Below are positions 28,983-56,200 of a stretch of 64,000 bases of DNA, piece after piece (position 1 is the first letter of the stretch; every line of letters begins with the position of its first letter). The notes beneath the pieces were generated by a model. The model did no database searches, was not told the DNA's origin, and was given only the letters and a program-made list of their open reading frames with translations. Source of the DNA: Patiria pectinifera (lineage: Eukaryota; Echinodermata; Asteroidea; Valvatida; Asterinidae); contig CM057135.1 of assembly GCA_029964075.1 (NCBI GenBank), positions 248,001-312,000 of the forward strand, in the 5' to 3' direction. Made by a program: the position numbers and the translations under genes.

Positions 28983-31811
28983 CTAGACAAAGTCATCATC
29001 ATCATCCGACTTATTGTTAGAGCTGTTACCGTCATCAACGGATGGCAGACATTGCAATGGGTCCCCACCCACCGGCATATCCGGCTCTCTACGCGGATCC
29101 ACAATGAGTAGTTTACGGTTCACCCATCTGCTGTCACCACCAGCAACTGGCCTAATTAGAAAGAGACTATTTTCCCCATCACAATCTACTATGACGTACG
29201 GACGCTCGTCGAAGGTGTTCGCAAGCTTGTGGCGACCTGTATGCGCAAACTGTCTCAACAAGACCCTAGTACCAACCGCCAGATGGCTTGCATTGGCCTT
29301 TCTGTCATACCGGCGCTTGTTCAACTCTGCGGCTCTGGTCAGCCGGTCTTTAACAACCTTGTAAGTGTGTTTGATGATTTGAGCCTGCTTCTGTATACTA
29401 TTTTCATTCCAGTTGTTTCGTGTGTTGCTGAGCAACTGATCCAAGGGGACAACAGACTGTCTCCCAAACATTAAGGTGTATGGTGCATACCCTGTCACAG
29501 AGTGGGGTGTAGTGTTGTAGATGTAGACCAAATGGGGGAGCAACTCGGGCCAACGATGACGACTTGCACTGTCTAGAGACTTGATGAGACCACACAGGGT
29601 ACGGTTAAACCTTTCGGTCTGACCGTTACCCTGCGGGTGATAAGGTGTCGTCCTTGTTTTCTTAATGTTGTACAGCTTGCATGATTCCTGAATTAACCCA
29701 CTTTCAAAATTACGCCCCTGGTCTGAGTGTATTTGGATTGGAATCCCATAGTGGACGAACCAGTGATCGCGCAACACACGGCCTACTGTTGGTGCCGTTT
29801 GGTCCCTACATGGTACTGCAACAGAAAACTTTGTAAAAGAATCAGTGAGGACCAGTACATCCTCAATGTTCCCCAGGCCGCGATCTAGCTTCACGAAATC
29901 AATCGCAAGCCGCTCCAACGGCTGAAAAGCCAAGAGATGGCGCATCGGCGACCGAACAGTGGGAGAGGGGGCTTTGGATACTCTGCACTGGAAGCAATCC
30001 CTAATATGGTTATGCACATGAGTAGAAACACCAGGCCAAAAACAACGCTGTTTGATGAAGGACAAGGTTCTTGCAACCCCTTGGTGCCCCCAATGGTCAT
30101 GGGCTCCTTCGATAATCGTCCTCCTGAGCCTTCGTGGAACAAGAAGCTGGAACACCTCTCCTCGGCCCGCATCATGCAGACATCTGTACAAAACACCACC
30201 TTTCTCCTTTATGCGTGGCCACTCCTTAATCCAACTTCGGGCTTCTTTGGAAAGTTGTTCTCCAACTGGTAAGTCTTGCCCAGGCTCCCAACGACTGCGC
30301 CAACGCTCCCAAACTATTTTGAGGTCGTCATCCTCTTGCTGCAGAGACGCAAGTTCGGCAGGTGAATAAGAGGGTAGAACTGAAGGTGCTGAACCTGAAA
30401 GATCCACTGGTCTCTTCACACCCTGCTCCTCACAATTAGCAGATCGCACAGCAATGGGTATCGAGACACCTTCGTCAAACTCGCTGTGGTGGGCACACTG
30501 AAGAACATTGACCTTGACCTCCTGCTGAGCACCAGGGTAGCAGCTTAGGGCATCCGCACATTTATTGGACTTCCCTGATCTGTACCGAATTTCAAGGTCG
30601 AACGGTGCGAGCTGAGCGGCCCACCTCTGCTCAACAGTACCAAGTTTAGCTGTCTGAAGGTGCGCTAAGGGATTGTTGTCAGTATATACGACCGTGTGAC
30701 GTCCAAGTAAGTAGTCTCTGAATTTTTCAGAGACGGCCCACTTGAGGGCCAAAAACTCTAACTTAAAGCAAGAGAGATCTGAATATCCCTTTTCAGCACC
30801 TCGGAGACTCCTGCTGGCAAAAGCCACGGGATGAAGCTTTCCCAAGTCATCTAACTGGCAGAGACAAGCTCCCAAACCGATTAACGAGGCATCAACCTCT
30901 AGAACAAAGTCACGGTTGAAGTCGGGATACCACAAGACGGGTGCAGTACAGAGAGCCTGCTTCAAACTCCTGAAGGCCTGATCAGCCTCCTCTGACCAAC
31001 AGAACACCGAACGGGTGTTCCCTGCTTTTTCCTCTTCCTTACGGGTCAAGGCATGCAAGGGCTCAGCCACCTTTGAGAATCCCGAAACAAATCGCCTGTA
31101 ATAAGAGGCTAAGCCGAGAAATGATCTCAGCTGCTGTACGGTTGCTGGGATGGGCCAATCCCGAATGCGTGCAGTTTTATCCGGATCTACTGATACTCCA
31201 TCGCTACTGACGATGTGACCCAGATGTCGAACAGAAGTCTGGAAAACCTGACACTTCTTCCCATTTAGCTTGAGACCATAGCGTTCAAGCCGTTCAAAGA
31301 CTTTGGCTAGACGCCCCAAGTGTTCCTCATATGTGCTAGAAAAGACTAACAAGTCATCGAGGTACATGACCAACTCCGAAAGGTTGAGATTGCCAAAGAT
31401 CAACTCTACAATGCGTTGAAAAGTGCTGGGCGCATTTGTCAATCCTTGAGGAAGCCTGAGGAACTCGTAGAGGCCCCACGGTACGCGGAACGCCGTTTTC
31501 CCAACCGAATCCTCATGCATGGCTACCTGGAAGTAGCCATGCGCCATATCAAGTGACGAGAAGAGCTTAGCCCCAGTGAGCGACTCCAAAGTCTCCTCTA
31601 TCCTTGGTAAAGGAAACGCATCTTTGGTGGTCTTTGCATTGAGAAGTCTATAATCAATACACAGCCTCAGCTGTCCGCTTTTCTTTCGCACCAGAACTAT
31701 CGGACTAGCGTACGGGCTGGCTGATCTGCGAATGATTTGGCGATCAAGCAAATCTTGAAGGAGCTGTTTAACTTCTTCGACAAGACAAGGTACAATCCTA
31801 CGGTGCGGCAA
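28983..31811 (-). CDS. gypsy A pol: reverse transcriptase, RNase H, integrase
   Basis: About 942 residues. RT: LRLCIDYRLLNAKTTKDAFP, then LPQGLTNAPSTFQR and the catalytic VMYLDDLLVF. RNase H: DFVLEVDASLIGLGACLCQL and later VVYTDNNPLAHLQ. Integrase: zinc-finger H and C residues in HDHWGHQGV and CFQCRVSK, then the DDE core with LAIDFVKLD, IQIHSDQGRNFESG and GNGQTERFNRTLCG. The order RT-RNase H-integrase is that of Ty3/gypsy. The enzymes copy the element's RNA into DNA and insert it. The tail is Asp-rich. This ORF reads through as it stands. Confidence 0.9.
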   Translation of the reverse strand: MPHRRIVPCLVEEVKQLLQDLLDRQIIRRSASPYASPIVLVRKKSGQLRLCIDYRLLNAKTTKDAFPLPRIEETLESLTGAKLFSSLDMAHGYFQVAMHEDSVGKTAFRVPWGLYEFLRLPQGLTNAPSTFQRIVELIFGNLNLSELVMYLDDLLVFSSTYEEHLGRLAKVFERLERYGLKLNGKKCQVFQTSVRHLGHIVSSDGVSVDPDKTARIRDWPIPATVQQLRSFLGLASYYRRFVSGFSKVAEPLHALTRKEEEKAGNTRSVFCWSEEADQAFRSLKQALCTAPVLWYPDFNRDFVLEVDASLIGLGACLCQLDDLGKLHPVAFASRSLRGAEKGYSDLSCFKLEFLALKWAVSEKFRDYLLGRHTVVYTDNNPLAHLQTAKLGTVEQRWAAQLAPFDLEIRYRSGKSNKCADALSCYPGAQQEVKVNVLQCAHHSEFDEGVSIPIAVRSANCEEQGVKRPVDLSGSAPSVLPSYSPAELASLQQEDDDLKIVWERWRSRWEPGQDLPVGEQLSKEARSWIKEWPRIKEKGGVLYRCLHDAGRGEVFQLLVPRRLRRTIIEGAHDHWGHQGVARTLSFIKQRCFWPGVSTHVHNHIRDCFQCRVSKAPSPTVRSPMRHLLAFQPLERLAIDFVKLDRGLGNIEDVLVLTDSFTKFSVAVPCRDQTAPTVGRVLRDHWFVHYGIPIQIHSDQGRNFESGLIQESCKLYNIKKTRTTPYHPQGNGQTERFNRTLCGLIKSLDSASRHRWPELLPHLVYIYNTTPHSVTGYAPYTLMFGRQSVVPLDQLLSNTRNNWNENSIQKQAQIIKHTYKVVKDRLTRAAELNKRRYDRKANASHLAVGTRVLLRQFAHTGRHKLANTFDERPYVIVDCDGENSLFLIRPVAGGDSRWVNRKLLIVDPRREPDMPVGGDPLQCLPSVDDGNSSNNKSDDDDDFV

Positions 31812-31881
31812 GTTGACTGGTTTGTCATCCCCAAGCTTGATCTGGTGAGAAATTAAATTACAAAAACCCAGATCAAATGGG

Positions 31882-33114
31882 CTACAATGAAAAAGCGCCT
31901 GTGTGCTTCTTGATCAATTCTGCTGCAAGGACAGCCTCTGTCGGCCCAAGGTGACTCAGACTAATTCCTGGGGGTAAAAGAAAATCTGACCCATCAGGAA
32001 ACACAAACCGTTCACGATCAGACCGGGATTCACTCTCTTTCGCGTCATCAGACACATGCTCATTGGAATTTTTACTCTCAAAACAATCAGACTCGATGTC
32101 CGAAAAATCTGTTCCGTCAGAAACAACACGGTGCATAAAAACGCTAAACCCACCCTCTGTTGGCTCGATAAAAAGGTGTTCGGTTGGAACAACCTCAAAA
32201 GCTACAGCCACCTTAGTGTGTGGAGGAATAACAACGGGCTCCGCACTGGCGTTAGCCACAAAAACATCAACTGATGCACCCTTAAACTGGTCGATACCTT
32301 CCAGTACCTGACACAACACTGACGGATCAGGAACACTGCATGACTGGACTTCCTTAAGGCCTCCGTTATTTGACAAACATAAGGGAGAAGCCTGAACAAG
32401 GAACTCTTTGTCACTTGGTACAAGAGTGTTCACACCCAACTCGCAACGAATACGACTGACCATCCCAGTAGGAATGACCTCTCGCTTACACGAACATATG
32501 TCCAACACTAATGGTTCACAAGGGGTATTATCACCACAGCCACTGTTATCATCGACCGTGGAGGTTGTCCGTACCCAACGGAGTGCTAAATCCCAGTCGG
32601 GGTCAAACAGAGCTGAACCCATGACCTTAACGTTGGATGCTATTTGCCGCAAAATATTGCATCCTAATATCACAGGACACTGATCTCTACGAGAACTTGC
32701 CGAAGCTTCAGTCTCCTTTGAAACCAGAAAACTAGCCTTAAACTTCTGGCCAAATACTTCTAGAGAAGTCTCAAGATAGCCTTGGACAGGAATTTCTAAG
32801 TCATTGGCGCCCATCAACTTAATGAGCGTACCCACTGGCTCCAGTTTCCCAAGAGTGCTTGCCATATGTTTACTATAAAATTTAGCAGACATTAAGGAGG
32901 TTTCAGCTCCAGTGTCAAGCAAACACCTAGTAGGAATACCATTAATGATAACAGAAGCTGTAGGAGATCTAGCCAGAAGTCTACGACGGACTTCAGCAGC
33001 TGTAAGTTGCACATCTGCTGCAACGTTGTCATCCCCCACTTTATCACAATTCACCTGGTCGCTATCAATGGATAATTGAGCCATGGGCACTACACAAGAC
33101 CTATCCTCCGTCAC
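31882..33114 (-). CDS. gypsy A aspartic protease region
   Basis: A 410-residue reading with RCLLDTGAETSLMSAKFYSK at about residues 63-82, the DTGA active site of retroviral-type aspartic proteases. It then has a flap-like stretch and CPVILGCNILRQIA, matching the ILG motif near the protease C-terminus. The remaining 200 residues are acidic and unrecognised. It lies between the gag zinc knuckle and pol, as usual. The enzyme would cut the polyprotein. Confidence 0.8.
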   Translation of the reverse strand: MTEDRSCVVPMAQLSIDSDQVNCDKVGDDNVAADVQLTAAEVRRRLLARSPTASVIINGIPTRCLLDTGAETSLMSAKFYSKHMASTLGKLEPVGTLIKLMGANDLEIPVQGYLETSLEVFGQKFKASFLVSKETEASASSRRDQCPVILGCNILRQIASNVKVMGSALFDPDWDLALRWVRTTSTVDDNSGCGDNTPCEPLVLDICSCKREVIPTGMVSRIRCELGVNTLVPSDKEFLVQASPLCLSNNGGLKEVQSCSVPDPSVLCQVLEGIDQFKGASVDVFVANASAEPVVIPPHTKVAVAFEVVPTEHLFIEPTEGGFSVFMHRVVSDGTDFSDIESDCFESKNSNEHVSDDAKESESRSDRERFVFPDGSDFLLPPGISLSHLGPTEAVLAAELIKKHTGAFSL

Positions 33115-33122
33115 ACTGCCCT

Positions 33123-34169
33123 CTATGGCAGAGGCTGACCGTTTCCCGAACTGACTGGCTGTTTGTCTACAGCTCTTGCTTCTGACTTGTTGCCCTCAAT
33201 TCGCTTGCGCTTAAAGCAGTTCTCTTTGACATGGCCTGGTTTCTGGCAGTACGAGCACTTTAAGGGACTCCTATTTCTTTGGCCCCTGTTAGCCCGCTGC
33301 TCTACTACAAGGCTTGCAATGTTGTCAGACATGGTATGCAACTGAGCACTCATGTCTGATTGTTGGTCAACTAATTTCTGAACTGACGTCACGAGTTGCT
33401 TTTGGCTTTCAACTAGCTGCGCTAATTTATCATCATTGGCCACGATTGGTTTAGTGGAACGCGCGGCGTTAACAGACTGTAAAGCGTCAACTTCACTCTC
33501 GGCCCTTAACGTACCTTCCGCATTGGGATAAAGCCCCAGAGCCAACTCACGAAAACTGAAAAAGGTACGTCCGCATGGTCAAAGGACAACTTACGAAGCT
33601 CTCTCCGTAAGGCGGGATCACCAATGCCGCTTATGAATTGTTCCCTGAGAGTACCTTCTCTTAACTGAGTAAGAGCTGCTTTGCTTTGCTCTGTATCGGC
33701 CGCAGACTCCATCCTATAGTACATCCGAATTAGAGAGCCACTGTAGTCGGCAAGACTCTCGTCTGGGAGCTGACTACGGGCATATAGGGAGCTAGTTAAC
33801 GACTGCACAGTTTCTGGTGCGCCAAAATCTACGGCAAAGCAACGATTCAAGCTTTGCCCAAGTATCCCTCTGTTGTTGAGGGGTACACAATATCTCATCT
33901 CTCGCGACACCCCCCAAATAATCAAACGCAGTGTTAACTTTCTCCTGTTCGGAGAGACCGAGTTGGCGAGAGTACGTGTTCAAGTCATGCTGCCATTCAG
34001 AAATGGTCTGGTCCCCTGACTTCTTGGGGAGGCCATTAAATTTGTTCAATTTAATCGTCGAGGCTCTCTGGTACCTAAGGTTTTGAAATGCACCATCCAA
34101 CGTGTTGGCTAGAGCTTGATTTGACTGCAAAATTGCATCGGCTACATTTTCTTGGAGTGCCATGATCAC
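33123..34169 (-). CDS. gypsy A gag region
   Basis: Overlapping minus-strand readings give an N-terminal capsid-type part (LNKFNGLPKKSGDQTISEWQ, then QLGLSEQEKVNTAFDYLGGV) and a nucleocapsid with one CCHC knuckle, CSYCQKPGHVKENC. The region is broken in a few places. Gag would package the element's RNA. It starts about 0.5 kb inside the 5' LTR. Confidence 0.75.
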
Positions 34170-35463: not shown

Positions 35464-36849
35464 TGTTGTCTTTTATAGTTCCTGTATTTTACCCATTTAT
35501 CGTAAATTGCCAACTTGCACTTTTATTCCCAGGGTCTCTTACCAAGCACGGCGCATGATGCAATACCACGCGCGCTACTGTATGCATTATTCATGTAGCG
35601 ATGTACATGTGCGCAACTGACCACACCTCCCTTCGCCCCAGCGAGCTAAGTTCCTTTCCCCATAGCAGGCGTGCTTTGGCGTTCTCCGAGAGACTGCTCA
35701 GCGGCACGGAGCGTTTCTCTCCCCCGTGTGTTACCCATGAACACTAACTGGAGTTCTCGGTCCAGTTTTCCGGTCCCGTACTTAGCTCGAGGGAATGGAA
35801 TGTTACCCTTGCGTGGTTGCGTAGCTGGGCGTGGTAAGACATCCTGTGGTGTCAATAACCTGTGACACAGTTAACTTTTAGCTTGTCACTCACTCCATCA
35901 AGGTTGCTCGAGATGTTGTGTAAACACTTTTGCACTCTGATCTAACTATTTGCACACATCTCTCTCTGTATTTGCACACTTCTCTCTCCATGTTTTCCCT
36001 TATGTAAATGCACACGTTTCTAGTCTCTTGCACGAGGCACTCTTAGTAAATCATGTGACTAGTCATGTGATTCTTTGACATGGAAGATTACTATTGGTTA
36101 ATTCCTAAATCAGTGCTCATGTATTATTTAATCCCGAGACTTCTACTGCCTATAAATACCGGAGGTTTTCCTCACTTTCGGCAGTGCGGCGAACCACGAA
36201 ACCAATGTAGTGCGAACGAACCCTAAACCCAAAGTTGTGCGGCGAACTTATATGTTGTGCGGTCAATTGTATGATGTGCGACGAACTCGACTCTGACAGA
36301 CCGATTGTTGTGTGACTTTTGTCACTACGAAGCATCGGCCTCCCTTGGTGGTTGAGGCGCGGTGAAGTAATAGTGCAATCACTAGTACTAGTGTTATTAT
36401 GAAGCATCCTTCTCCTAGATCCCTCGAGGAGTGTGTAGAAGCTGGTGAAATAGTAATACACTAGTCCCAATGGTGCTGTGCGGTTTCGAATGGCCATTGG
36501 ACTGCTAGTCTTAGCTTGAACATGGTTGTGCGGTTGTCTGGTGTTCTAGCCCAGCCACAGCTAGTTCATCCCCGTCACCACAGCGGACCGCTCCCGCTGT
36601 GGCCAGCCGGCTCCCCGTAGCCATCCCCCCGTAGTTCAGCTATGCTGGCCCGGTCTTGTCATAAACACTATCCTTGGTGCATAGTGCCTTGATTGACCTT
36701 GGATACCCGATACGCCACATGCACACTTTGGTTCGAACTGTAGTGCGGCCTGGTACACTTGCTGGCCCCGTCCAGTTACCGTTGCCTCCCCGGTCACCGT
36801 AGCAGACCGCTCCCGCTTTGGTCTGACCGTCGATAACCCGTACCGTGCC
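35464..36849 (+). repeat. Right LTR of the deleted element, part 2 of 3
   Basis: Continues the LTR after gypsy A and matches 22187 to about 23530. It ends with CGTGCC, the 6-bp duplication of the palindromic element. Confidence 0.85.
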
Positions 36850-36958
36850 AGTAGTGTAGTCTAAGCATTTGACCCCGTTTTCTCAAGGAGGATCATGATC
36901 CTCATCGAGGATCATATCGGTAACCCTGACGAGGATCATAAAACGGGGTGTGTCTATG
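36850..36958. repeat. Left terminus of the palindromic element with GAGGATCAT iterons
   Basis: After the AGTAGTG end come CCCCGTTTT and its inverse AAAACGGGG, about 80 bp apart, enclosing four GAGGATCAT or AGGATCATGATCCT motifs. The mirror copy is at 45278-45386. Clustered iterons next to an end are typical of transposase or integrase binding sites; that role is inferred. Confidence 0.6.
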
Positions 36959-38102
36959 GCGAGGTGACGTCATGGATCGATGGACAAATCGATCGTGGGG
37001 ATTAGCGTTGAATAAGTATTATTGCTTGAAGATAATAGTACAACCAAAGGGGAAAAAGGCAAACGACGATGCAGACAACGCCAGCGTAAGTGAATAATTT
37101 TCTATATACATATTTATTTATTTAGTATTTTTTTTTTTTAAGTAACTTGAAGCGTCAGTAAAAAAACACACAATAGATTCATCCAAATTGTTGATGAAGG
37201 TGGTTATCGATGCCTAATAATGGGTACTCTCGTAAAAAAAACCTGTGTTTTCTTTTAGTTATTAATGTTATAATTCACCAGAACTCACCAGAACATTCCT
37301 TGAGTGGTCAACGGGCGATATATAGTTTTCAAGTATTTTATTCATAACCACATCAAACATACAACATAAAATTAAAAGTAAGCTAAACATACAATGTACA
37401 TATTATTAAACAAAATAATACATGTAATAATAAATAAGTATTATGTAAAAATAAAATAATTGAACACACAATGCACTCGCCTTGGCAGATTAATTCGGTT
37501 TACAGTTCGCAGTATAACACATGATGAAAGATTTATTATTCAGTCTGCTCTCAGAAATTTACTTTTTTCGTATATGAACGAACGAAGATATTTTATACAA
37601 ATGTAACAAAAATACCCCCCCCCCAAAAAAAAGGTACTTTACCGTCCTGCCTGAACACAATTCAATGACTCGCATAAAAAGAATTATTTACAATTTGTAT
37701 TTTGACTTCCCACATCCGATTTATAGTTTCGTATTTTAACAATTCATTACAATTACATGTACATGTATTGTAATTACGCGGTCCTCCGTCCGTATTTTAA
37801 CAATTTCAAGAAAATAATCATTCAAAAATTGTTTGAAAATGCGCACAAGCGCATGATCATAATTTACAATGTTTTATTTTTTTAGCAACACAAGTTCCAG
37901 TTAACTTATTGTAATAAAAGACAGGTAGCCTAAATGTATACACTTCCGGCATCACTTCAATTAGACGTTTCGTAATTATTGAGCGTTTTAGAAGAGTTTA
38001 TCTTGAAAAATGGGACGCTTATACAATACTCATAGCTCGTGACTAACAAAACTATAAGATTAACCAAGCTTGCGATAATTCCTACAATCAATTAATATTG
38101 TT
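36959..38102. other. Outer non-coding part of the left arm
   Basis: AT-rich, mirrored at about 43890-45277. No ORF of note. It contains TGTACATGTACATGTA-type alternating sequence near 37755 and a C/A homopolymer junction near 37617. Confidence 0.55.
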
Positions 38103-38608
38103 TCAACCGTTCAGTTCGACTAATACATTTATTATTGCGCAACATAACGTTTCTATGTCGTTTGGCAAATAATACTGTCCACCAAACGTCCAGCCGTCGT
38201 TCCTGGTAGATTGTGTTGGCCTAAACCTCAATTGCGTCCAAGTAAGAAGTAAGACCGTACGAATATTTGTTTGTGTGTTAAAACACAAAATAAGGATTTC
38301 TGTCCCTTCGTGAGTGCAGAATCTTGGTTACCCGGTCACTGAAATTTTGGGAAAATCAAACGCTTGTTATTTTGCGGAAGCTGTGACAACAAGCACGAAC
38401 TAAACGCGTATTTGCTCATCAAATCTTGCGAATGAATCGTACTCTGTTGTTTGTTCATTACATTACTTTCAAATACAAAATAGGCTATCTTGGTTCTTAT
38501 AGATCTTCCGTGTAAGTTAGGACCATAACAAATATATGGAGACGAAATAATACCGTCAAAATTTAAGTTGCCGACTTGCCGTCGTATTCGCGCATCATCC
38601 ACCCACAA
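38103..38608 (-). CDS. Hypothetical small ORFs of the left arm
   Basis: Two minus-strand readings, 38336-38608 (90 residues, with NLNFDGIISSPYICYGPNLH) and 38103-38288 (61 residues, with GWTFGGQYYLPNDIETLCCA). Both face outward, the same way as the zinc-finger gene, and recur in the right arm at 43383-43655 and 43703-43888. They are in different frames and could be exons of one gene. No family is recognised. Mirror conservation alone does not prove coding. Confidence 0.3.
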
Positions 38609-38649
38609 AACGGGTCTGAGCTAGTATCACAATGGCCTTTGTATTTGGA

Positions 38650-38885
38650 AGGGGAATCCCTATGACGTCACAGTGATGAGTCATCGATGGGCGGCAAACA
38701 GAATGACCAGTCCAGACTTGTCCGGTCGTCAAGTCCGAATGCGCGGTGTTTTAAATATCTCCATCGGCGATACACAGCTGCCAGTGCCAGTGACGTCATT
38801 GTGATGATTCAGAGATGAACGACAAACAGGCTGACCAGTCCAAACGTGTCCAGTCGTCAAGTCCGAATTCGCTGAATTTTTAAAT
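38650..38885. promoter_or_regulatory. Tandem 105-bp repeat with two CRE-like sites, left arm
   Basis: Two diverged copies of a unit holding TTCGGACTTGACGAC (in inverse here), GACTGGTCA and TGACGTCA, the palindromic CRE/ATF site. Each unit borders a TTTAAATAT. It lies between the zinc-finger gene and the small ORFs, so it could drive the latter. Mirror copy at 43105-43345. Regulatory role is inferred. Confidence 0.4.
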
Positions 38886-39392
38886 ATATGTATATGTACA
38901 TGTATTTCCATGCACACACGATCAGCGGTGTGAACCATTTCAACGTTAGGTAAACGTTTGGTGTGCATCGGCAAGGTGAATGAATGCAGTTAATATATGC
39001 AGTTGGTTTTGAATTCATCACGACGATCGAATTAATCCCCTACACAAATTCAAGGTAAGTTTATGTCTCGAGATAAAATTATTATCATCAACATTAGTTT
39101 TTCTCTTTTGGGGGGGGGGGGCAGTCCTTTGTTAATGATTTTGCAAAGTCGGCGTGATACATTGCACATGATAACATTTTGTTGGAATCGTTTGGGTGAT
39201 AATTGTCCAAAACAAATTTATTTTTTCTTTCATTACCTCAGGGTCGGCCTAATCCTCTCGATGCAGTTTTACAAGGTACGAACCGTACTGATTTCTTTTC
39301 TACCAAAGGCGCTACAGTAGACTTTTATTTTAAAAATTACAATAGTCTTTCTTAAACTACTAGTCTTCAGTCATCACTGTCTTTAATCAACG

Positions 39393-40361
39393 CTAGTCTT
39401 CCTCAAGATCTTGGAACAGTCCGTCAAATTTGGGTTGGTGTTTAGGCATTATCCTGTTGAGGGCTGTATTTACTTCTGTGCCTTTATTTATTTTTTCTTC
39501 CAGATCTTCAACAATTTCTTGATGGGTATCGTTATCTTTCAAATGTAGGTAACTTGACAAAAAATCCTTGTAGTTGTTGAAAAAGCATCGCTTGACTGCC
39601 CAGAGTGTCTTCCTATTTGCTTTCTCATTGGCTTGATCTTCACCCATACGCCCGTTGACGTACTTTTCATATTTCTCACTCCACATCTCTTCGGTGGCGT
39701 CTTTGGCGTCTTCCAACCAGTCTTGATATGCGACATTGTCTTCCAATTCAGAACTAGACTCATCTTCATCCGATAATTCGCCTTCTTCTACCTCCGTTTC
39801 GGATTCCGAATAACCTTCCTCGAAATCTTCGCGTTCGTTCTGCGAAGATTTGGCTTCATAGTTTTCTATTTCTGAATCTTCAAATGACTCATCTTCATCC
39901 GAACATTCGTCTCCTTCTACCTCCGTTTCGGACTCCGAATAACCTTCCTCGAAATCTTCGTCGTCATTCTTCAAAGATTCAGCTTCGCAGTTTTCTATTT
40001 CCGAATCTTCAAATAACTCATCTTCATCCGATAATTTGTCATCTTTTACCTCCGTTTCGGATTTTGAATAATCTTCATCGAAATCTTCGTCTTCATCCTG
40101 CGTAGATTCAGTTCTACAGTTTTCTATTTCCGAATCTTCAAATCTACGCTTTTTAAAATCAGGTTCAGAATTATCCACATCAAGGTCCTCCACTTTAATT
40201 TCCTCCTCAGCATGTACATTTTCTATATGCCTCCGCAGGTTATATCTCCGCCCAAAGCTCTTGTCGCACTTGTGACAAACATTGGATTTGACTGCAGAAA
40301 TAGCATTCATGTTGAGTCTTTGAAGGCAAATCTCCGAATGGCAAGAAACGGATGAAAACAT
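39393..40361 (-). CDS. C2H2 zinc-finger protein with acidic repeats, left-arm copy
   Basis: 322 residues, transcribed outward from the axis. One C2H2 finger lies at residues 29-50 (C29, C32, H45, H50; KSFGRRYNLRRHIENVH). It is followed by about three tandem copies of a 44-residue acidic unit (FEDSEIENC, then DEDFEEGYSESETEVE, then SDEDE) and a C-terminal 110-residue part with AYQDWLEDAKDATEEMWSEK and TLWAVKRCFFNNYKDFLSSY. ATG at codon 1 or 18 could start it. A single finger plus an acidic stretch suggests a DNA-binding regulator or end-binding protein; the C-terminal part is not recognised. The frame is open, as in the right-arm copy, with only a handful of replacements between them. Confidence 0.75.
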   Translation of the reverse strand: MFSSVSCHSEICLQRLNMNAISAVKSNVCHKCDKSFGRRYNLRRHIENVHAEEEIKVEDLDVDNSEPDFKKRRFEDSEIENCRTESTQDEDEDFDEDYSKSETEVKDDKLSDEDELFEDSEIENCEAESLKNDDEDFEEGYSESETEVEGDECSDEDESFEDSEIENYEAKSSQNEREDFEEGYSESETEVEEGELSDEDESSSELEDNVAYQDWLEDAKDATEEMWSEKYEKYVNGRMGEDQANEKANRKTLWAVKRCFFNNYKDFLSSYLHLKDNDTHQEIVEDLEEKINKGTEVNTALNRIMPKHQPKFDGLFQDLEED

Positions 40362-40386
40362 TTGATATGTAGCTACTCATTTCAGC

Positions 40387-41600
40387 TGCTCGTGCTCTTT
40401 TGCTCACCCCCTGCTCTTTTATTGCTCTTTTCTTGCTCTTTTCTTGCTCTTTTCTTGCTCTTTTTTTGCTCTTTTTTTGCTCTTTTCTTGCTCTTTTCTT
40501 GCTCTTTTCTTGCTCTTTTATTGCTCTGTTTTTGCTCTTTTTTTGCTCTTTTGCTGCTCTTTTCTTGCTCTTTTCTTGCTCTTTTCTTGCTCTTTTATTG
40601 CTCTTTTTTTGCTCTTTTCTGGCTCTTTTCTGGCTCTTTTTTGGCTCTTTTGCTCTTTTCTTGCTCTTTTCTTGCTCTTTTTTGGCTCTTTTTTCTCTTT
40701 TCTTGCTCTTTTATTGCTCTTTTGCTCTTTTGCTCTTTTCTTGCTCTTTTGCTCTTTTCTTGCTCTTTTGCTCTTTTGATCTTTCCTTGCTCCTGTCTTG
40801 CTCTTTTCTTGCTGAGCAAGAAAGGAGCAAAAGAGCAAGACAGAAGCAAGGAAAGAGCAAGAAAAGAGCAAAAAGAGCAAGAAAAGAGCAAAAGAGCAAG
40901 AAAAGAGCAAAAGAGCAAGAAAAGAGCAAAAAAGAGCAAGAAAAGAGCAAGAAAAGAGCAAGAAAAGAGCAATAAAAGAGCAAGAAAAGAGCAAGAAAAG
41001 AGCAAGAAAAGAGCAAAAGAGCCAAAAAAGAGCAAGAAAAGAGCAAGAAAAGAGCAAAAGAGCAATAAAAGAGCAATAAAAGAGCAATAAAAGAGCAATA
41101 AAAGAGCAAGAAAAGAGCAAGAAAAGAGCCAAAAAAGAGCAAGAAAAGAGCAAGAAAAGAGCAAGAAAAGAGCAAAAGAGCAAAAAAAAGAGCAATAAGA
41201 GCAAGAAAAGAGCAAAAGAGCCAAAAAAGAGCAAGAAAAGAGCAAGAAAAGAGCAAGAAAAGAGCAAAAGAGCCAAAAAAGAGCAAGAAAAGAGCAAGAA
41301 AAGAGCAAAAGAGCAATAAAAGAGCAATAAAAGAGCAATAAAAGAGCAATAAAAGAGCAAGAAAAGAGCAAGAAAAGAGCAAAAGAGCAAAAAAAAAGAG
41401 CAATAAAAGCAAGAAAAGAGCAAGAAAAGAGCAAGAAAAGAGCAAAAGAGCAAAAAAAGAGCAAGAAAAGAGCAAGAAAAGAGCAAAAGAGCAAAAGAGC
41501 AAAAAAAGAGCAATAAAAGAGCAATAAAAGAGCAAGAAAAGAGCAAAAAAGAGCAAGAAAAGAGCAATAAAAGAGCAAGGGGTGAGCAAAAGAGCACGAG
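40387..41600. repeat. Strand-switching simple repeat at the palindrome axis
   Basis: From 40387 to about 40813 the plus strand reads as tandem TTGCTCTTTTC with variants. From about 40817 to 41600 it reads as the inverse, GAAAAGAGCAA, with variants GCAATAAAAGA and GCCAAAAAAGA. The strand switch is at CTTGCTGAGCAAG near 40814. The axis of the unique arms falls at about 40994, so the right-hand repeat is longer by some 360 bp. The long Leu/Phe/Ser-rich and Lys-rich ORFs here are by-products. Confidence 0.9.
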
Positions 41601-41627
41601 CAGCTGAAATGAGTAGCTACATATCAA

Positions 41628-42596
41628 ATGTTTTCATCCGTTTCTTGCCATTCGGAGATTTGCCTTCAAAGACTCAACATGAATGCTATTTCTGCAGTCA
41701 AATCCAATGTTTGTCACAAGTGCGACAAGAGCTTTGGGCGGAGATATAACCTGCGGAGGCATATAGAAAATGTACATGCTGAGGAGGAAATTAAAGTGGA
41801 GGACCTTGATGTGGATAATTCTGAACCTGATTTTAAAACGCGTAAATTTGAAGATTCGGAAATAGAAAACTGTAGAACTGAATCTACGCAGGATGAAGAC
41901 GAAGATTTCGATGAAGATTATTCAAAATCCGAAACGGAGGTAAAAGATGACAAATTATCGGATGAAGATGAGTTATTTGAAGATTCGGAAATAGAAAACT
42001 GCGAAGCTGAATCTTTGAAGAATGACGACGAAGATTTCGAGGAAGGTTATTCGGAGTCCGAAACGGAGGCAGAAGGAGACGAATTTTCGGATAAAGATGA
42101 GTCATTTGAAGATTCAGAAATAGACAACTATGAAGCCGAATCTTCGCAGAACGAACGCGAAGATTTCGAGGAAGGTTATTCGGAATCCGAAACGGAGGTA
42201 CAAGAAGACGAATTATCGGATGAAGATGAGTCTAGTTCCGAATTGGAAGACAATGTCGCCTATCAAGACTGGTTGGAAGACGCCAAAGACGCCACCGAAG
42301 AGATGTGGAGTGAGAAATATGAAAAGTACGTCAACGGGCGTATGGGTGAAGATCAAGCCAAGGAAAAAGCAATTAGGAAGACACTCTGGGCAGTCAAGCG
42401 ATGCTTTTTCAACAACTACAAGGATTTTTTGTCAAGTTACCTACATTTGAAAGATAACGATACCCATCAAGAAATTGTTGAAGATCTGGAAGAAAAAATA
42501 AATAAAGGCACAGAAGTAAATACAGCCCTCAACAGGATAATGCCTAAACACCAACCCAAATTTGACGGACTGTTCCAAGATCTTGAGGAAGACTAG
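41628..42596 (+). CDS. C2H2 zinc-finger protein with acidic repeats, right-arm copy
   Basis: Mirror partner of the gene at 39393-40361, with the same length, start and stop. Replacements relative to it include KKRR to KTRK after the finger and a few changes inside the acidic units; the finger itself is identical. Both copies remaining open after divergence, with substitutions and no frame loss, hints at selection on the protein or at gene conversion between arms. The ATG lies only about 30 bp from the simple repeat, so any promoter must overlap the repeat or sit in the ACGAGCAGCTGAAATGAG spacer. Confidence 0.75.
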   Translation: MFSSVSCHSEICLQRLNMNAISAVKSNVCHKCDKSFGRRYNLRRHIENVHAEEEIKVEDLDVDNSEPDFKTRKFEDSEIENCRTESTQDEDEDFDEDYSKSETEVKDDKLSDEDELFEDSEIENCEAESLKNDDEDFEEGYSESETEAEGDEFSDKDESFEDSEIDNYEAESSQNEREDFEEGYSESETEVQEDELSDEDESSSELEDNVAYQDWLEDAKDATEEMWSEKYEKYVNGRMGEDQAKEKAIRKTLWAVKRCFFNNYKDFLSSYLHLKDNDTHQEIVEDLEEKINKGTEVNTALNRIMPKHQPKFDGLFQDLEED

Positions 42597-43104
42597 CGTT
42601 GATTAAAGACAGTGATGACTGAAGACTAGTAGTTTAAGAAAGACTATTGTAATTTTTAAAATAAAAGTCTACTGTAGCGCCTTTGGTAGAAAAGAAAACA
42701 GTACGGTTCGTACCTTGTAAAACTGCATCGAGAGGATTAGGCCGACCCTGAGGTAATGAAAGAAAAAATAAATTTGTTTTGGACAATTATCACCCAAACG
42801 ATTCCAACAAAATGTTATCATGTGCAATGTATCACGCCGACTTTGCAAAATCATTAACAAAGGACTGCCCCCCCCCCAAAAAAAGAGAAAAACTAATGTT
42901 GATGATAATAATTTTATCTCGAGACATAAACTTACCTTGAATTTGTGTAGGGGATTAATTCGATCGTCGTGATGAATTCAAAACCAACTGCATATATTAA
43001 CTGCATTCATTCACCTTGCCGATGCACACCAAACGTTTACCTAACGTTGAAATGGTTCACACCGCTGATCGTGTGTGCATGGAAATACATGTACATATAC
43101 ATAT
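42597..43104. other. Right-arm spacer between the zinc-finger gene and the CRE-like repeats
   Basis: Mirrors 38886-39392. It contains a C-run next to AAAAAGAG at about 42870 (G-run at 39110 on the left) and short ORFs on both strands that mirror each other. No gene recognised. Confidence 0.5.
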
Positions 43105-43345
43105 ATTTAAAAATTCAGCGAATTCGGACTTGACGACTGGACACGTTTGGACTGGTCAGCCTGTTTGTCGTTCATCTCTGAATCATCACAATGACGTCAC
43201 TGGCACTGGCAGCTGTGTATCGCCGATGGAGATATTTAAAAACACCGCGCATTCGGACTTGACGACCGGACAAGTCTGGACTGGTCATTCTGTTTGCCGC
43301 CCATCGATGACTCATCACTGTGACGTCATAGGGATTCCCCTTCCA
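43105..43345. promoter_or_regulatory. Tandem 105-bp repeat with two CRE-like sites, right arm
   Basis: Plus-strand order: ATTCGGACTTGACGACTGGA, ACTGGTCAGCCTGTTTG, AATGACGTCACTGG, then the second unit with GTGACGTCATAGGG. Mirror of 38650-38885. An ORF reads through both units, which gives the false look of a protein repeat (SDLTTGHVWTGQPVCR, SDLTTGQVWTGHSVCR). Confidence 0.4.
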
Positions 43346-43382
43346 AATACAAAGGCCATTGTGATACTAGCTCAGACCCGTT

Positions 43383-43888
43383 TTGTGGGTGGATGATGCG
43401 CGAATACGACGGCAAGTCGGCAACTTAAATTTTGACGGTATTATTTCGTCTCCATATATTTGCTATGGTCCTAACTTACACGGAAGATCTATAAGAACCA
43501 AGATAGCCTATTTTGTATTTGAAAGTAATGTAATGAACAAACAACAGAGTACGATTCATTCGCAAGATTTGATGAGCAAATACGCGTTTAGTTCGTGCTG
43601 GTTGTCACAGCTTCCGCAAAATAACAAGCGTTTGATTTTCCCAAAATTTCATTGACCGGGTAACCAAGATTCTGCACTCACGAAGGGACAGAAATCCTTA
43701 TTTTGTGTTTTAACACACAAACAAATATTCGTACGGTCTTACTTCTTACTTGGACGCAATTGAGGTTTAGGCCAACACAATCTACCAGGAACGACGGCTG
43801 GACGTTTGGTGGACAGTATTATTTGCCAAACGACATAGAAACGTTATGTTGCGCAATAATAAATGTATTAGTCGAACTGAACGGTTGA
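43383..43888 (+). CDS. Hypothetical small ORFs of the right arm
   Basis: Mirror of 38103-38608: ORFs 43383-43655 and 43703-43888, near-identical to the left copies. They follow the CRE-like repeats by about 40 bp. No recognised domain; coding status doubtful. Confidence 0.3.
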
Positions 43889-45277
43889 AACAATATTAAT
43901 TGATTGTAGGAATTATCGCAAGTTTGGTTAATCTTATAGTTTTGTTAGTCACGAGCTATGAGTATTGTATAAGCGTCCCATTTTTCAAGATAAACTCTTC
44001 TAAAACGCTCAATAATTACGAAACGTCTAATTGAAGTGATGCCGGAAGTGTATACATTTAGGCTACCTGTCTTTTATTACAATAAGTTAACTGGAACTTG
44101 TGTTGCTAAAAATAAAACATTGTAAATTATGATCATGACCTTGCGCGCATTTTCAAACAATTTTTGAATGATTATTTTCTTGAAATTGTTAAAATACGGA
44201 CGGAGGACCGCGTAATTACAATACATGTACATGTAATTGTAATGAATTGTTAAAATACGAAACTATAAATCGGATGTGGGAAGTCAAAATACAAATTGTA
44301 AATAATTCTTTTTATGCGAGTCATTGAATTGTGGTCAGGCAGGACGGTAAAGTACCTTTTTTTGGGGGGGGGGTATTTTTGTTACATTTGTATAAAATAT
44401 CTTCGTTCGTTCATATACGAAAAAAGTAAATTTCTGAGAGCAGACTGAATAATAAATCTTTCATCATGTGTTATACTGCGAACTGTAAACCGAATTAATC
44501 TGCCAAGGCGAGTGCATTGTGTGTTCAATTATTTTATTTTTACATAATACTTATTTATTATTACATGTATTATTTTGTTTAATAATATGTACATTGTATG
44601 TTTAGCTTACTTTTAATTTTATGTTGTATGTTTGATGTGGTTATGAATAAAATACTTGAAAACTATATATCGCCCGTTGACCACTCAAGGAATGTTCTGG
44701 TGAGTTCCGGTTGGTTTTAGGCACCCCGAGTCGTCTTTTATTAAGTTGTGTGTGTTTTTATTGTTTAAGGATATAATGTTAATGCACTTGGCTTTTAATA
44801 TTTTGTTTCAGTCCTTTTGTGTTTGCAGTTGGGTGATTGTTAAGTAAGGTTCTGACTTACCATGTTTTTGTTGTGTTTTGCCAAAAAAAAAATATATATA
44901 AATATTTATGTATTTGGTCCCATCAACATCTGGTTACGTGTCGCGTGCTTAATTAAAAAAATTATAACATTAATAACTAAAAGAAAACACAGGGGTTTTT
45001 TTTACGAGAGTACCCATTATTAGGCATCGATAACCACCTTCATCAACAATTTGGATGAATCTATTGTGTGTTTTTTTACTGACGCTTCAAGTTACTTAAA
45101 AAAAAAAATACTAAATAAATAAATATGTATATAGAAAATTATTCACTTACGCTGGCGTTGTCTGCATCGTCGTTTGCCTTTTTCCCCTTTGGTTGTACTA
45201 TTATCTTCAAGCAATAATACTTATTCAACGCTAATCCCCACGATCGATTTGTCCATCGATCCATGACGTCACCTCGC
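43889..45277. other. Outer non-coding part of the right arm
   Basis: Mirrors 36959-38102 apart from about 0.25 kb at 44706-44960 (starting TTCCGGTTGGTTTTAGG) that has no counterpart on the left. No ORF of note. Confidence 0.55.
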
Positions 45278-45386
45278 CATAGACACACCCCGTTTTATGA
45301 TCCTCGTCAGGGTTACCGATATGATCCTCGATGAGGATCATGATCCTCCTTGAGAAAACGGGGTCAAATGCTTAGACTACACTACT
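45278..45386. repeat. Right terminus of the palindromic element
   Basis: Inverse of 36850-36958, with the same GAGGATCAT iterons, ending ACTACACTACT at 45386, followed by CGTGCC. Confidence 0.65.
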
Positions 45387-45392
45387 CGTGCC

Positions 45393-47489: not shown

Positions 47490-48575
47490 ATGGCGCACGT
47501 AAGATACAACCGCATCCGTAATGAAGACAGGGCAAGGTTGATCGAGACCTTCGAAGCTGGCAGTGATTATCTGGAGATGGCTGATACGCTTGGCATCAAG
47601 CATTCAACTGCACGATCAATTATCATGACCTTCACAACAACAGGTAAAACGGAGAAGCTACCAACAGGAGGGGCTAGAAAAAGGAAGATGGACGAGGAAA
47701 TGAAGAACAGACTAGAGAGGTCTCTTCAAGATAACCCCATGATGACTCTTGAAGAGATGCAGCAAGACCTGCGACAAAACATGCCCCAAAAGCCACCAGT
47801 GAGCACATCAACTATCGCCAGAACACTTGATGGTATGATGTTCTCAATGAAGATGCTCGAAGACGTACCAGACGTCCGCAATTCTCCCCGTGTGCTGCAG
47901 CAACGAGAGCAGTACGCAAACTGGTTCATGCAGACAGGTGTTGTGTCGCATTGCGTCTTCGTGGACGAAACGGGGTACAATGTCTGGACCCGTCGGTCGC
48001 GTGGAAGAGCACCTCGTGGTGAACCCGCCCGTCGAGTTGTCCATGGGCAGCGTGGAAAAAACTGCAATGTCACGTTTGCTGTATCGGATGAGATCGGTCT
48101 GGTCAACCACACAATAGCCTGCGCAACCGTCACAAGAGATACTTTCGAGCAGTTCCTCCTGGTCACCGCTCGTCAATGCTAGCAGATATTCCCACCAGGC
48201 GAACCAGTGTACATCATCTATGACAACGCTCGCCCCCATGTAAGAGCACAGTTGCCAGATGGTATGCATCCGAGAATCAACCTGAAACTGCTTTCCCCCT
48301 ACAGCCCATTTCTGAATCCAACTGAAATGGCGCACAGTGCTTTCAAGGCTGCTGTGAAACGGGATTTAGGTCGTCCGGAGATGCGGCAACGTCTAAATGA
48401 CAGGGAGGCTGCACGTGAGGCTGGAGACAACCTCCAGCAATGGAGATGCAGGCAGCTTACAACAGTTGCTCAACGGAACATCGACGCCATCACGCAAGAA
48501 AAGTGTGGGAATTGGTACCGGCACTCCCAGCGTTACATGCCCCGCTGTCTGGCCCGTGAAATAATCAATGGCTGA
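47490..48575 (+). pseudogene. IS630/Tc1/mariner-type transposase, DD33E, one in-frame stop
   Basis: One frame of about 361 codons from MAHVRYNRIRNEDRARLIET to AREIING, interrupted only by TAG at 48180-48182. N-terminal helix-turn-helix: ETFEAGSDYLEMADTLGIKH, STARSIIMTF, then a basic GGARKRK linker. Catalytic residues: D in VFVDETGYNVWTRRSRG, D in VYIIYDNARPH and E in LLSPYSPFLNPTEMAH. The gap between the second D and E is 33 residues, near but not equal to the DD34E of Tc1. The enzyme would excise and insert its transposon. The single stop suggests a recent loss. Terminal inverted repeats were not found. Confidence 0.85.
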
Positions 48576-51731: not shown

Positions 51732-53260
51732 TTAATCTTTGTCGATCACACCGGCTGTGAATTTCACATCGAAGACACGGGTAGTTTTATCCTTGGTGAT
51801 CTTGCGGCCTTCCTGGAACACACACCTCGAGGACGTTTCCCGGACTTGCGTAACGTTGCCCACCATCGCTCTCTCAAGATCCTGCTTTCCCATAGGTGCT
51901 CCTACGACAACCTCCCCGGTGTTCTCGCAACGGACGAGGCGACGGAGCTGACTGCTGTTCTGCGGATCAGAAGACTCGCTGGCCCTCTTAGCAGGTAGGT
52001 TCTTGAGATATACGATGTCGAATTCCCTCTGGACTTCCCCGCAGATAGTGCGTCCCTCTTTGGCATACAGGTAGGTCTCTCGGGTTTCCTTCACACGAAC
52101 CATTTGTCCAGGTAGGAGCCTCTCTGGCAACAGGGGTTGAGGCCAGAATGGCTGAGGCGAATCTTCCTTCTTATGGTCGTTCTCCTCGGTAGGCACATCT
52201 TTCTCAGCCGATGTTTCGCGTAGCATTGCCAACATCGCGAGCGGCTTACCCCCAGTTGGGGCTGAAGTTAGGCCTTCGATGAGCTCTTCCTCCTGATCCC
52301 AAAGCATTGGCGTGGGAGACAGTGCTATCTCTACCAGCTCCCCTGAAGATCCTTGCCATGGCTGTTCGGTATCACCTATCTCCACCTCCCCGTCTGCCTC
52401 TGGTACGTCAGGGACAGTATCCGAAGGTGCGTGGTCTTCAAAGGCAGGGGCTGCATCTTTCAAGTCCTTAGGCAAGTCAGCCGCCTTTTCTCGCCTTTCC
52501 TGTCCAGGTGTCACAGTCATTTCCTTCTCCTTCCGGTTTGGTACTCGTCCTCTCGCCGTCGAAAGGTCTAGTGGGTCGTCATCTGGTGGTCGAGAAACCG
52601 TGCATGGTGCTGGCACTTTACCCTTCTGTTTCTTGTCCTTTGGTCGCTCATCCTTGTCATGGTCACGCTTCCTCTTGAAATCCTTCTCCTGCTTGTTATG
52701 CTGGCTATCCCTAGTCTCCTTCCTAGGACAGCTCTTGTTTGCTTCTCGGTCGTCCCTCCCAGTAGACATATCTGCGCAGGGGCTTCTCTGTTTTTCCTGT
52801 ACTCCCTTTTGAGACTGCTCTGCCTTGGCATCTCCCCGGTTTCTCTTCTTGGTGGTCTCTTGCCTGTCCTTGCTTGATTTAGGCTCCTTTGGCTCCTTCT
52901 GCTTGGTTGGTGTTCTGCTTCTCCTACTGCTCCTTTCCGGCAAATTAGGCATCTCCAAACCCCTTCTTCGAGCATCGCCTTCACCGCTGCGCCTATTGCG
53001 CTCACGCACCTCATAAGTCTCACCTTCGATCCTATCGACTTCGTGGATCTTCTCTGGGTGGCAGTCTCGGTAATGTGCTCGGAGGTTGTCCCTGCGGTTG
53101 TTCTTGTGCGAACACCGAAGACACCAGAAGAACAGTCGGGGCCATGTTCTACCATCAAATGCCGTTCAAGGCTCCTCTTGTGCATCCACATGTGGCATTT
53201 GGGGCACTCCACTGTCCCCTTTTCTGCTGCGTCACAATTTCTCTCCTCCTGCTTCCCCAT
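51732..53260 (-). CDS. Accessory region of gypsy B after pol: C2H2 finger ORF and basic ORF
   Basis: Two overlapping minus-strand readings. 52568-53260 (230 residues) holds a C2H2 finger near its start: VECPKCHMWMHKRSLERHL followed by MVEH. 51732-53009 (425 residues) opens very Lys/Arg/Glu-rich. It ends with two related segments, VRVKETRETYLYAKEGRTI and TQVRETSSRCVFQEGRKI, each followed by an FD(I/V) motif. That is an internal duplication of about 35 residues around RRLVRCENTGEVVVG. The position is that of env in other gypsy elements, but no signal peptide or membrane anchor is seen. Function unknown. Confidence 0.5.
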
Positions 53261-56200
53261 CCTTCACTTGTCTTCTCGGCCTCTGAAAGACACAACAGAG
53301 AAACGGTTGAGTTACATTACTGCTACTGAAAATTCCTACTCCAGTACAATCTGCAAAGTACATAGTAGGCTCTTGGCATCCTCGGTAGGCGCCATTCTTT
53401 GTTATTTCTACAAATAACAAGAAATGCCTTGCTGGATTTCTTCTCTGCGGTTGTTGCGTCTCAACGCAGCTAGGCTCCGGTATCGTACTCGGGATATCTG
53501 CCTGGGGTAGCTCGTCTGCTTGCGGTTGGTCGCTCACATCATCAACCTGTCTCGTCTGGTGCTCTACTTGCTGCTCTACAGACCTTGAAGCTGGAGACCC
53601 AACGCAATCGTTCTCCTCATTCTGGATCACCAACCCATCTCCGGCCGGGTCACTGTGGTCTGTCACTGGCGTGTCTGGTCTCATGTCATCCGCAGGCGTA
53701 ACCTTCGTAGGCTCTCCTACTTTCCATGGTTCCATTGGCTCACCAATGTACGGCTTAAGGCGATCATAGTGAATCACCTTCAGCCTTGCACGAGGCGACC
53801 TTTGAATTCTGTAGGTCACATCGGATAGTTTCCGGACAATGAGATAAGGTCCTTCCCATTTACGTTGGAGCTTTGGTGACTTTCCCTTTGTCTTGGCAGG
53901 ATTGTATAGCCATACGAACTGCCCTTCAGCTAGTCTGTCTCCTGCGGCTCTTAGGTCGTAATTCTTCTTCTGGCGCCTAGCACTTTGTTTCAGGCAAAAC
54001 ATTGCTCTATCGTGGGCGGCCCTCATGTTGTCTCTCAACTCCAATGCATAGTCACTTGCCACCGCTTCTGATCCGTGGTCCACCTTAGCAGGCATTCCGC
54101 TCATCAAGTCGATTGGTAGGAAAACCTCTCTGCCTAACATAAGCATGTTAGGGCTTTCACCTGTCGACTCTTGTGGGGTAGCTCTGTAGGCAAATGTGGC
54201 AAATGGAAGTTTGGTGTCCCAATCCCGTTGATGTTTATGTGGTTCGATCATCATTGAAATCATCGTCAGCAGCGTGCGATTAAATCTTTCAATCATCCCA
54301 TCTGATTTTGGATTGTAGGGCGTTGTGCGCGTCTTCTCGATCCCAAGGACTGTGCACATTTCAGAGAACACCTGGGACTCGAAATTCCTTCCCTGATCAG
54401 AATGCAAACTGACAGGGACACCGAAGCGACAGACGTACTCACTCACTAGCTTCTCTGCTACCGTTGTCGCCCTCTCGTCCGGAACGGGGTAGGCCTCGAC
54501 CCACTTGCTAAAGTAGTCACCTACCACAAGGATATACCTGTTTCCCCTTTCCGTCAGTGGGAGTGGTCCTACTATGTCCAAGGCGATTCGTTCCATAGGT
54601 GCGCCTACTGCCAGATGTTGGAGTGGTGCCCTTCTACGTCTCGCCGGTGACTTCTTGCTGGCGCAAACGTTGCACTGCCTTACCGCGGATCTCACGTCCG
54701 CACCCATTCCTGCCCAGTAGAATCGTTGACGCACCTTCATCATTGTCTTCTTAAGCCCGAGATGACCGCTGGACTTTCCTCCATGAAGCTCCTGAATCAT
54801 CGCCTTCCGGTAGGAGATCGGAAGTACAAGCTTCCAACTTACTCGGCGACCATCGTCTGACTCCCATCGCCTATACAGGATGTCATCCCTCATCTCGAGT
54901 TGGTCCCATAGTAGCCAATAGGACTTTACCACACCTGAATAAGGCGTAAGGTCGTTCCAACCAGGTCTACTCGCTGACTTCTTCATTTCTTGTATCACCC
55001 ATCGAATCGATGCGTCCTCCATCTGGGCATCTCGCCATTGTTCGTGTGTAATTGTTGGCTCTATGGTGACGACTCTTACCCCTGGCTTCTCGCCGGGTTC
55101 TTGTCTCGTAGGTTCTGTTACGCCCGGCTCGTCCAAAGGCGCCTCTGCTCTCCCACACTGTGTGCAAGGCTTCCTGGAAAGGCCGTCAGCGTTTCCATGT
55201 GATCGGCCCGCTCGATGAACAATAGTGAAGTCGTGTTCACTAATCACCTGAAGCCATCTGGCCATCTGTCCTTCGGGATCACGAAAATTCGTGAGCCACC
55301 TTAGCGCCCCGTGGTCTGTTCTGATGGTAATTCGCCTACCGTAGACATACTGCCGGAACTGCTTAAGAAACACCACGACCGCCAGAAGTTCCCTACGGGT
55401 CACGCAGTAGTTGCGTTCAGGCTTGCTTAATGCCCTACTGGCATAAGCCACCACTCTCTCTTGTCCATCTATTGACTGCGACAGCACGGCACCTATGCCC
55501 ACCCCGCTGGCATCTGTGTCTAGAATGTAATCTGCTGTTGGGTCTGGGTAAGTCAAAATAGGTGCTTCTTGCAACCGTTGCTTTAGCTCTTGAAAGGCGC
55601 CCTCGGTCTCGTCGGTCCATTCAAATTCACGTGCCTTCTCCGTCAGGCGATGAAGCGGTCGCGCCACATCGGCGAAACCCTTAATAAATCGCCTATAGTA
55701 AGATACTAGACCAAGGAAGCTTTGGACCTCCCTCACCGTCTTAGGCGTAGGCCACTCACGCACAGATCTAACCTTGTCAGGATCCGTGGTTATCCCATCT
55801 CCGGATACTACATGCCCTAGGTAAAGGACACTTTCCTTGAACAGCTCACACTTCTTGGGCTTAAGTTTAAGCCCTGCCCCACGCAGGCGCTGGAACACTG
55901 TCTCTAGGCGCAAAAGCTCCTCTTCAACTGTCCCTGCGAAGACTATAACGTCATCGAGGTAGACCAGCAATGTTTCCCAGTGGAGACCTGCCAACACCCG
56001 CTCCATAAGCCGTTCGAAGGTGGAGGGGGCGTTGCAAAGCCCGAAAGGCATCACCCGCCAGGAATACAGTCCCCCTCTCACCACGAAGGCAGATTTCTGC
56101 TTGGCCTCCTCTTCCAACTCCACCTGCCAATACCCCGATGCCAGGTCTAAAGTGGAGAACCACTTAGACCCAGCGAGGGAATCCAGCGAGTCGTCAATAC

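Follow-up and report, generated by a model that had tools for sequence, protein, structure and literature searches.

We analyzed a stretch of 64,000 nucleotides from Patiria pectinifera (GenBank assembly GCA_029964075.1, contig CM057135.1, positions 248,001 to 312,000 of the forward strand), referred to here as the window, in which an element at positions 36850 to 45386 is a palindrome with exactly mirrored ends. Its genome plan is end, core, zinc-finger gene, GAG array, and center, followed by the same array, gene, core, and end in mirrored order. We consider it probable that this element is one copy of a family of Polinton satellites that has a heritable palindromic genome and is homogenized through a hairpin.

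Structure of the palindrome and its ends

The palindrome is flanked by an exact target-site duplication, CGTGCC, at positions 36844 to 36849 and 45387 to 45392; the coordinates and the duplication given in a preliminary description of this DNA, made from the sequence alone, were exact. The left outer end (36850 to 37275, + strand), which begins with AGTAGTGTAGTC and is about 88% similar to Polinton termini over its first 193 bp, is mirrored exactly by the right outer end (44960 to 45386, − strand). The left arm core (37277 to 39392, +) and the right arm core (42597 to 44711, −) both consist, in their outer portions, of Polinton right-end sequence, and each adjoins one copy of an open zinc-finger gene of 322 codons (39393 to 40361, −, and 41628 to 42596, +), which starts next to the center and reads outward. 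The array between the genes is composed of (TGCTCTTTTCT)n in its left half (40412 to 40813, −) and of (GAGCAAGAAAA)n in its right half (40814 to 41579, +), and the strand switches at the center, 40813/40814.

Alignment of the inverted arms shows 2 gaps but no mismatch over the outer 427 bp and 97.6% identity over the following 3.55 kb, part of the array included; outside the array there are 27 substitutions in 3,544 aligned bases. The arms had been described as matching over their whole length; they are indeed mirrored but are unequal, since about 248 bp (44712 to 44959, −) are present in the right arm only and the array amounts to about 400 bp in its left half and about 770 bp in its right half. 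Because two related copies, L009 and L027 (loci are given by our working designations), also have sequence at the position of these 248 bp, the left arm has lost them. The same description had placed a gene set in each arm. The zinc-finger gene, which is the longest open reading frame (ORF) outside the array, stands, with homologues and purifying selection (see below), whereas the small ORFs have no evidence of coding and are mirrored because the underlying DNA is mirrored. A scan of the whole window against Rfam gave no match.

The termini AGTAGT and ACTACT of the element correspond to the end motif of Polintons, also called Mavericks. In the excerpted text of PMC8097293, vertebrate Mavericks have ends of the form (AGT)2//(ACT)2 or (AG)3//(CT)3 and perfect 6-bp duplications. 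All six palindromes that were read across both ends had AGTAGT ends and a perfect 6-bp duplication, namely, CGTGCC (window), CATATC (L034), AATGCT (C12), AAGCTA (L035), GAAATA (L043), and GGCGGA (C19), the last four of these being read by eye. Perfect duplications were also present in L027, L009, L016, L040, L041, and L042, and L019 matched at 5 of 6 bases; inspection by eye gave a perfect duplication for L047, 5 of 6 bases for L012, and none for L014.

Elements with Polinton genes occur in the same genome. The C8 element encodes an adenovirus-type protease (PF00770), an integrase with a chromodomain, and an ATPase with matches to Adeno_IVa2 and Pox_A32; it has a terminal repeat of 603 bp at 99.3% identity, the perfect duplication TCAATC, and a terminus similar to that of the window element, and two candidate capsid ORFs in it had no Pfam match. 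The C18 element encodes a family-B polymerase (PF03175) and has the duplication CACGGT, likewise perfect. At this locus (L025, 4538 to 9120) the polymerase is split over two frames, and its first part opens with C2H2 fingers. In addition, three very similar elements of 3 kb (L016, L017, and L018; C13, 16.76 to 16.86 Mb), which have Polinton ends and are flanked by AATCTC duplications, lie in both orientations within 100 kb.

Past its tip, the window element is 86 to 87% identical, for as much as 1 kb, to the right ends of both the C8 and the C18 element. Neither its ORFs nor Pfam searches revealed a polymerase, integrase, protease, ATPase, or capsid gene, and by gene content it is not an autonomous Polinton; its ends, as compared here, assign it to the nonautonomous relatives of Polintons. 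Among the zinc-finger gene matches listed, none lay inside the C8 or C18 element. The two ends of the C8 element, compared over 4 kb on the left and 1.2 kb on the right, are alike only over the 603-bp repeat. Beyond that repeat, both termini matched the right Polinton end in all six elements tested (the window element, L027, L043, L046, L047, and L048), with identities of about 72 to 95%.

Related copies, their centers, and their arms

We searched the source genome (613.5 Mb) with the window terminus and with the zinc-finger gene, scoring 40 of 102 and 124 of 570 candidates, respectively, so that all counts are lower bounds. The terminus had at least 40 matches and the gene at least 210. The element is therefore not without other copies, and the mobile palindrome with a gene in each arm that the preliminary description proposed has many relatives of like plan. 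Of the gene matches listed, 150 were used and merged into 121 gene copies, whose neighbors less than 12 kb apart formed 24 divergent, no convergent, and 3 tandem pairs. Eleven of the divergent pairs were read as DNA, and ten of these are near-complete palindromes: the window element, L034, L035, the C12 element (L038, L033, and L039), L036, L037, L043, L044, L045, and L046. L036 and L037 were read in their inner parts only, and the outer ends of L044, L045, and L046 were not all reached. The eleventh pair, L048, is rearranged and has inverted arms of 2.1 kb at 95.8%. A further palindrome with Polinton ends, C19:3811591-3816436 (L029, L021, and L030), folds within the 3' part of the zinc-finger gene, and a zinc-finger ORF of 80 amino acids or more was not found in it.

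Besides the end type of the window element, palindromes carry the types AGTAGTTTAGGGG, AGTAGTGAAGCCC, and AGTAGTGGTAGTGG. The L034 end type was found at 32 sites in the source genome and at none in the control, and 28 of the 32 sites form 14 facing pairs 3.8 to 6.0 kb apart. Four of these pairs were read; one is the L034 palindrome, and in each of the others (L040, L041, and L042) a single full copy of the gene remains. Together with L027 and L047, the latter three make up the five single-gene copies read, to be set beside the palindromes in the count of both forms that had been proposed. L027 contains an inverted stretch of array and a central sequence in common with L043, and L040 retains the central spacer, after which its sequence passes directly into the outer core of the arm that was lost. 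With these remnants of a palindrome center, L027 and L040 are palindromes that have lost the inner part of one arm. No such remnant was seen in the DNA of L041, L042, and L047.

L034, L035, L036, and L037 have one common central spacer, a dyad of 74 to 88 bp with a loop of about 23 nucleotides, and their arms are 99.3 to 99.7% alike within an element and 94.8 to 98.9% alike between elements. In L036 the central loop has the opposite orientation to that in the other three; we considered this as a hairpin flip-flop but dropped it, since a symmetric element merely shows which way the copy was inserted. Within L043 the two arms differ at 23 of 2,722 positions, whereas its left arm differs from the left arm of the window element at 318 of 2,370. 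A similar relation is seen in the type with a 245-residue protein, where the two arms differ at 4 of 2,246 positions in C12 and at 2 of 2,239 in L045, while the arms of C12 and L045 are about 19 to 20% different from one another. L034 and L035 are unrelated to each other in their outermost sequence (about 120 and 180 bp), and each element has the same version at both of its termini. In a gene tree from which L043 (no single open frame found) and L046 were excluded, the two copies were sisters in seven of eight palindromes. As judged from these alignments, the common centers show that the palindromic form is inherited in two groups of relatives, and the arms show re-equalization within lineages in most cases.

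The zinc-finger protein, the central array, and other features of the window

The 322-residue protein of the window element contains one C2H2 finger (PF00096; score, 25.6 bits; cut-off, 25.2), and its Pfam matches were to zinc fingers only. It also has an acidic linker and acidic repeats of 43 residues, which correspond to 129-bp tandem repeats in the DNA. AlphaFold2 predicted a helical C-terminal region, with a mean predicted local distance difference test score of 65.5 and values exceeding 90 through most of the two folded parts. Fold searches with the predicted structure gave no match with an E value below 0.001, the best PDB entries being single zinc fingers; scanning IMG/VR with the protein and its alignment detected no relative, and PHROGs returned weak matches only (best E value, 0.011). 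Homologous proteins numbered 62 in a first search and 68 in a second. The two that were assigned to a species came from Patiria miniata and Amphiura filiformis, both of which are echinoderms, and the Patiria protein is by eye nearly identical to the C12 protein.

The ratio of nonsynonymous to synonymous substitution rates, determined for a set that left out L037 and L043 to L046, was 0.09 to 0.43 between elements within the 206-residue type and 0.24 to 0.38 across types. It was 0.49 and 0.66 for the window copies against L027 and 0.82 between the two window copies (3 synonymous and 11 nonsynonymous changes). The codon comparisons show purifying selection on the gene between elements, and the differences between the two window copies look like near-neutral change following insertion.

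The array separates the starts of the two genes in every gene-bearing palindrome whose center was examined. Its units differ by type (11, about 20, and 21 bp), and in one array of each type the only dense trinucleotides were GAG, GAA, and AAA. GAG recurs every 10.7 to 11.7 bp, which is about one helical turn. On the gene-sense strand, GAGYA occurs 12 to 72 times per array compared with 0.8 to 3.0 times in base shuffles; on the opposite strand it is absent from 15 of 16 arrays, the exception being L027, with 4 occurrences, which holds the remnant of a lost arm. According to the C2H2 recognition code, arginine at position −1, asparagine at 3, and arginine at 6 read GAG, and the finger of the window protein has these three residues. 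Of 97 homologues compiled, 63 had a readable finger; the full combination was present in 36 of them, arginine at 6 in all 63, and arginine at −1 in 59. The zinc-finger protein probably binds the GAG array between the gene starts and controls expression or replication.

The window contains several other features. Two adjoining ORFs of 138 and 142 amino acids at the window edge, 63148 to 63993 (+), virus-like by eye, were considered as Polinton capsid genes, but this reading found no support, as they had no Pfam match and did not match the ORFs of L028 or L025. Long ORFs at 28983 to 34169 (−) and 51732 to 58803 (−) resemble, by eye, polyproteins of long terminal repeat retrotransposons, and the ORF at 53235 to 56702 is 31% identical over 96 amino acids to the integrase ORF of the C8 element. 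An integrase-core ORF (PF24764) is located at 7025 to 7729 (+), and a Tc1/mariner-like ORF (PF13358) is located at 47490 to 48575 (+), with a second ORF at 48207 to 48575 noted by eye.

Origin, maintenance, and relation to known systems

Because the element combines Polinton ends with a Polinton-type 6-bp duplication, its replication and integration are presumed to be Polinton borne. A Polinton with similar ends would supply the polymerase, the terminal protein, and the integrase in trans. Since right-end Polinton sequence occurs at both termini, a copy-back origin is probable, in which synthesis that had started from the right end would have changed strands partway along the molecule and returned, the palindromic form being inherited thereafter. 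The satellite would be copied from its ends, and the displaced strand, being self-complementary, would fold so that one arm could template the other; integration of the double-stranded palindrome would then generate a 6-bp duplication. The zinc-finger protein would bind the hinge and act on the divergent genes or on replication, and some single-gene copies are palindromes minus the inner part of one arm, as shown for two of the five read. A more specific version, which we advance tentatively and hold at slightly below even, is that of a parasite lineage of virus-like Polintons with a self-complementary heritable palindrome that is arm templated in each cycle, paired exchange of its ends to match helpers, and a zinc finger that acts on the GAG array of the hinge.

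Several observations weigh against a family that is inherited as a palindrome and homogenized through a hairpin. (i) In the window element, the gene copies do not come out as sisters in the gene tree, being separated from each other by 14 base differences and from L027 by 12 and 13, although the window arms outside the gene do group as sisters. L027 and the window element differ by about 1 to 1.5% in the gene and mostly by more in the aligned arm outside it, up to about 10%, which suggests that genes have been exchanged between elements. (ii) C12 and L044 are too similar to be resolved; the arms of L044 differ at 14 of 2,239 positions, and its right arm differs from C12 at 7 to 8. (iii) Positions 194 to 488 of the window right arm are matched, among four Polinton ends, only by the left end of C18 (75% over positions 1 to 488), and the tip is therefore a mosaic. 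(iv) Because the C19 palindrome folds elsewhere, the palindromic form has also arisen more than once. (v) The correspondence between finger and GAG was noticed after the arrays were known, with a recognition code taken from general knowledge.

The main rival is that the palindrome is inherited but its arms are kept alike by chromosomal gene conversion after insertion, with no hairpin intermediate. Conversion works well on inverted arms that lie near each other and are almost perfect, the low divergence within elements fits, and variants shared among the 129-bp repeats of the window element, in which 7 of its 27 differing sites fall, show local exchange. However, L034 and L035 differ in both outer ends together, all the way to the boundary of the insertion, and the 27 differences, with L027 as outside reference, are split evenly (12 arose in the left arm, 12 arose in the right arm, and 3 are unclear), as expected for independent mutation since insertion. 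Neither point is decisive, and we regard conversion as unlikely. It is improbable that the palindrome is instead remade at each move by inverted duplication of a single-gene element. Such copies do exist, the C19 palindrome has its own fold point, and the center of the window element lacks the spacer of L043 and L027; yet L034 to L037 have one palindromic spacer in common, L027 and L043 share their central sequence, and the single-gene copies L027 and L040 retain remnants of a palindrome center. For two groups, the shared centers refute remaking at each move.

Two further explanations carry far less weight. Fold-back transposons such as FB, TU, and Galileo resemble the element in their long inverted arms and internal tandem repeats, and one of them might by chance carry a gene. 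They have family-specific ends, duplications of other lengths, and arms without genes, whereas the window element has a 6-bp duplication and AGTAGT ends in common with Polintons and a conserved gene in each arm, and we give this explanation very little credence. We give almost none to an assembly artefact. Palindromes are hard to assemble, but the exact 6-bp duplications in different, unrelated flanks, the private mutations of each arm, and ten other palindromic loci of several subfamilies make chance or assembly error a very unlikely source of the window palindrome.

The hairpin-homogenized satellite that we favor has its closest counterparts in several known systems. With Polintons it shares the AGTAGT...ACTACT ends, the 6-bp duplications, and the terminal and subterminal sequence of Polinton-type elements in the same genome, but it lacks Polinton genes, carries a single gene that is present once in each mirrored arm, and has right-end sequence at both of its termini. 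The preliminary description knew of no named family with this plan; a palindromic Polinton family was likewise not found in the literature searched, which left out most subscription papers, but a place for the element outside known kinds is not supported, given its Polinton ends and snap-back-like plan. Besides adeno-associated virus (AAV), adenovirus is also known to have snap-back defective genomes. The AAV forms, as far as the excerpted text of PMC8235507 describes them, likewise have one end at both termini, symmetric and asymmetric forms, and head-to-head genes. Adenovirus vectors with internal inverted repeats rearrange during replication, according to the part of PMC2518115 available. 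In contrast to such defective genomes, the palindromes described here form a chromosomal family with shared centers, a conserved gene of its own, and subfamilies and are not a fresh by-product of a helper. Virophages are satellites of DNA viruses, and the window element, if our reasoning is right, would similarly depend on the replication machinery of another element; it differs from them and from other satellites of DNA viruses in having no capsid or replication gene and in its palindromic genome.

The snap-back form, which elsewhere is a by-product of viruses with linear DNA, thus seems here to be a stable and diversified chromosomal family with a conserved gene. Such a family would be a natural record of protein-primed replication in animals, of the end at which it starts and of the folding of displaced strands, and it makes it possible to test directly whether one arm serves as the source of the other. 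It may represent an animal counterpart to satellite systems such as virophages, and it shows that gene-bearing palindromes of such length can persist and spread as mobile DNA.

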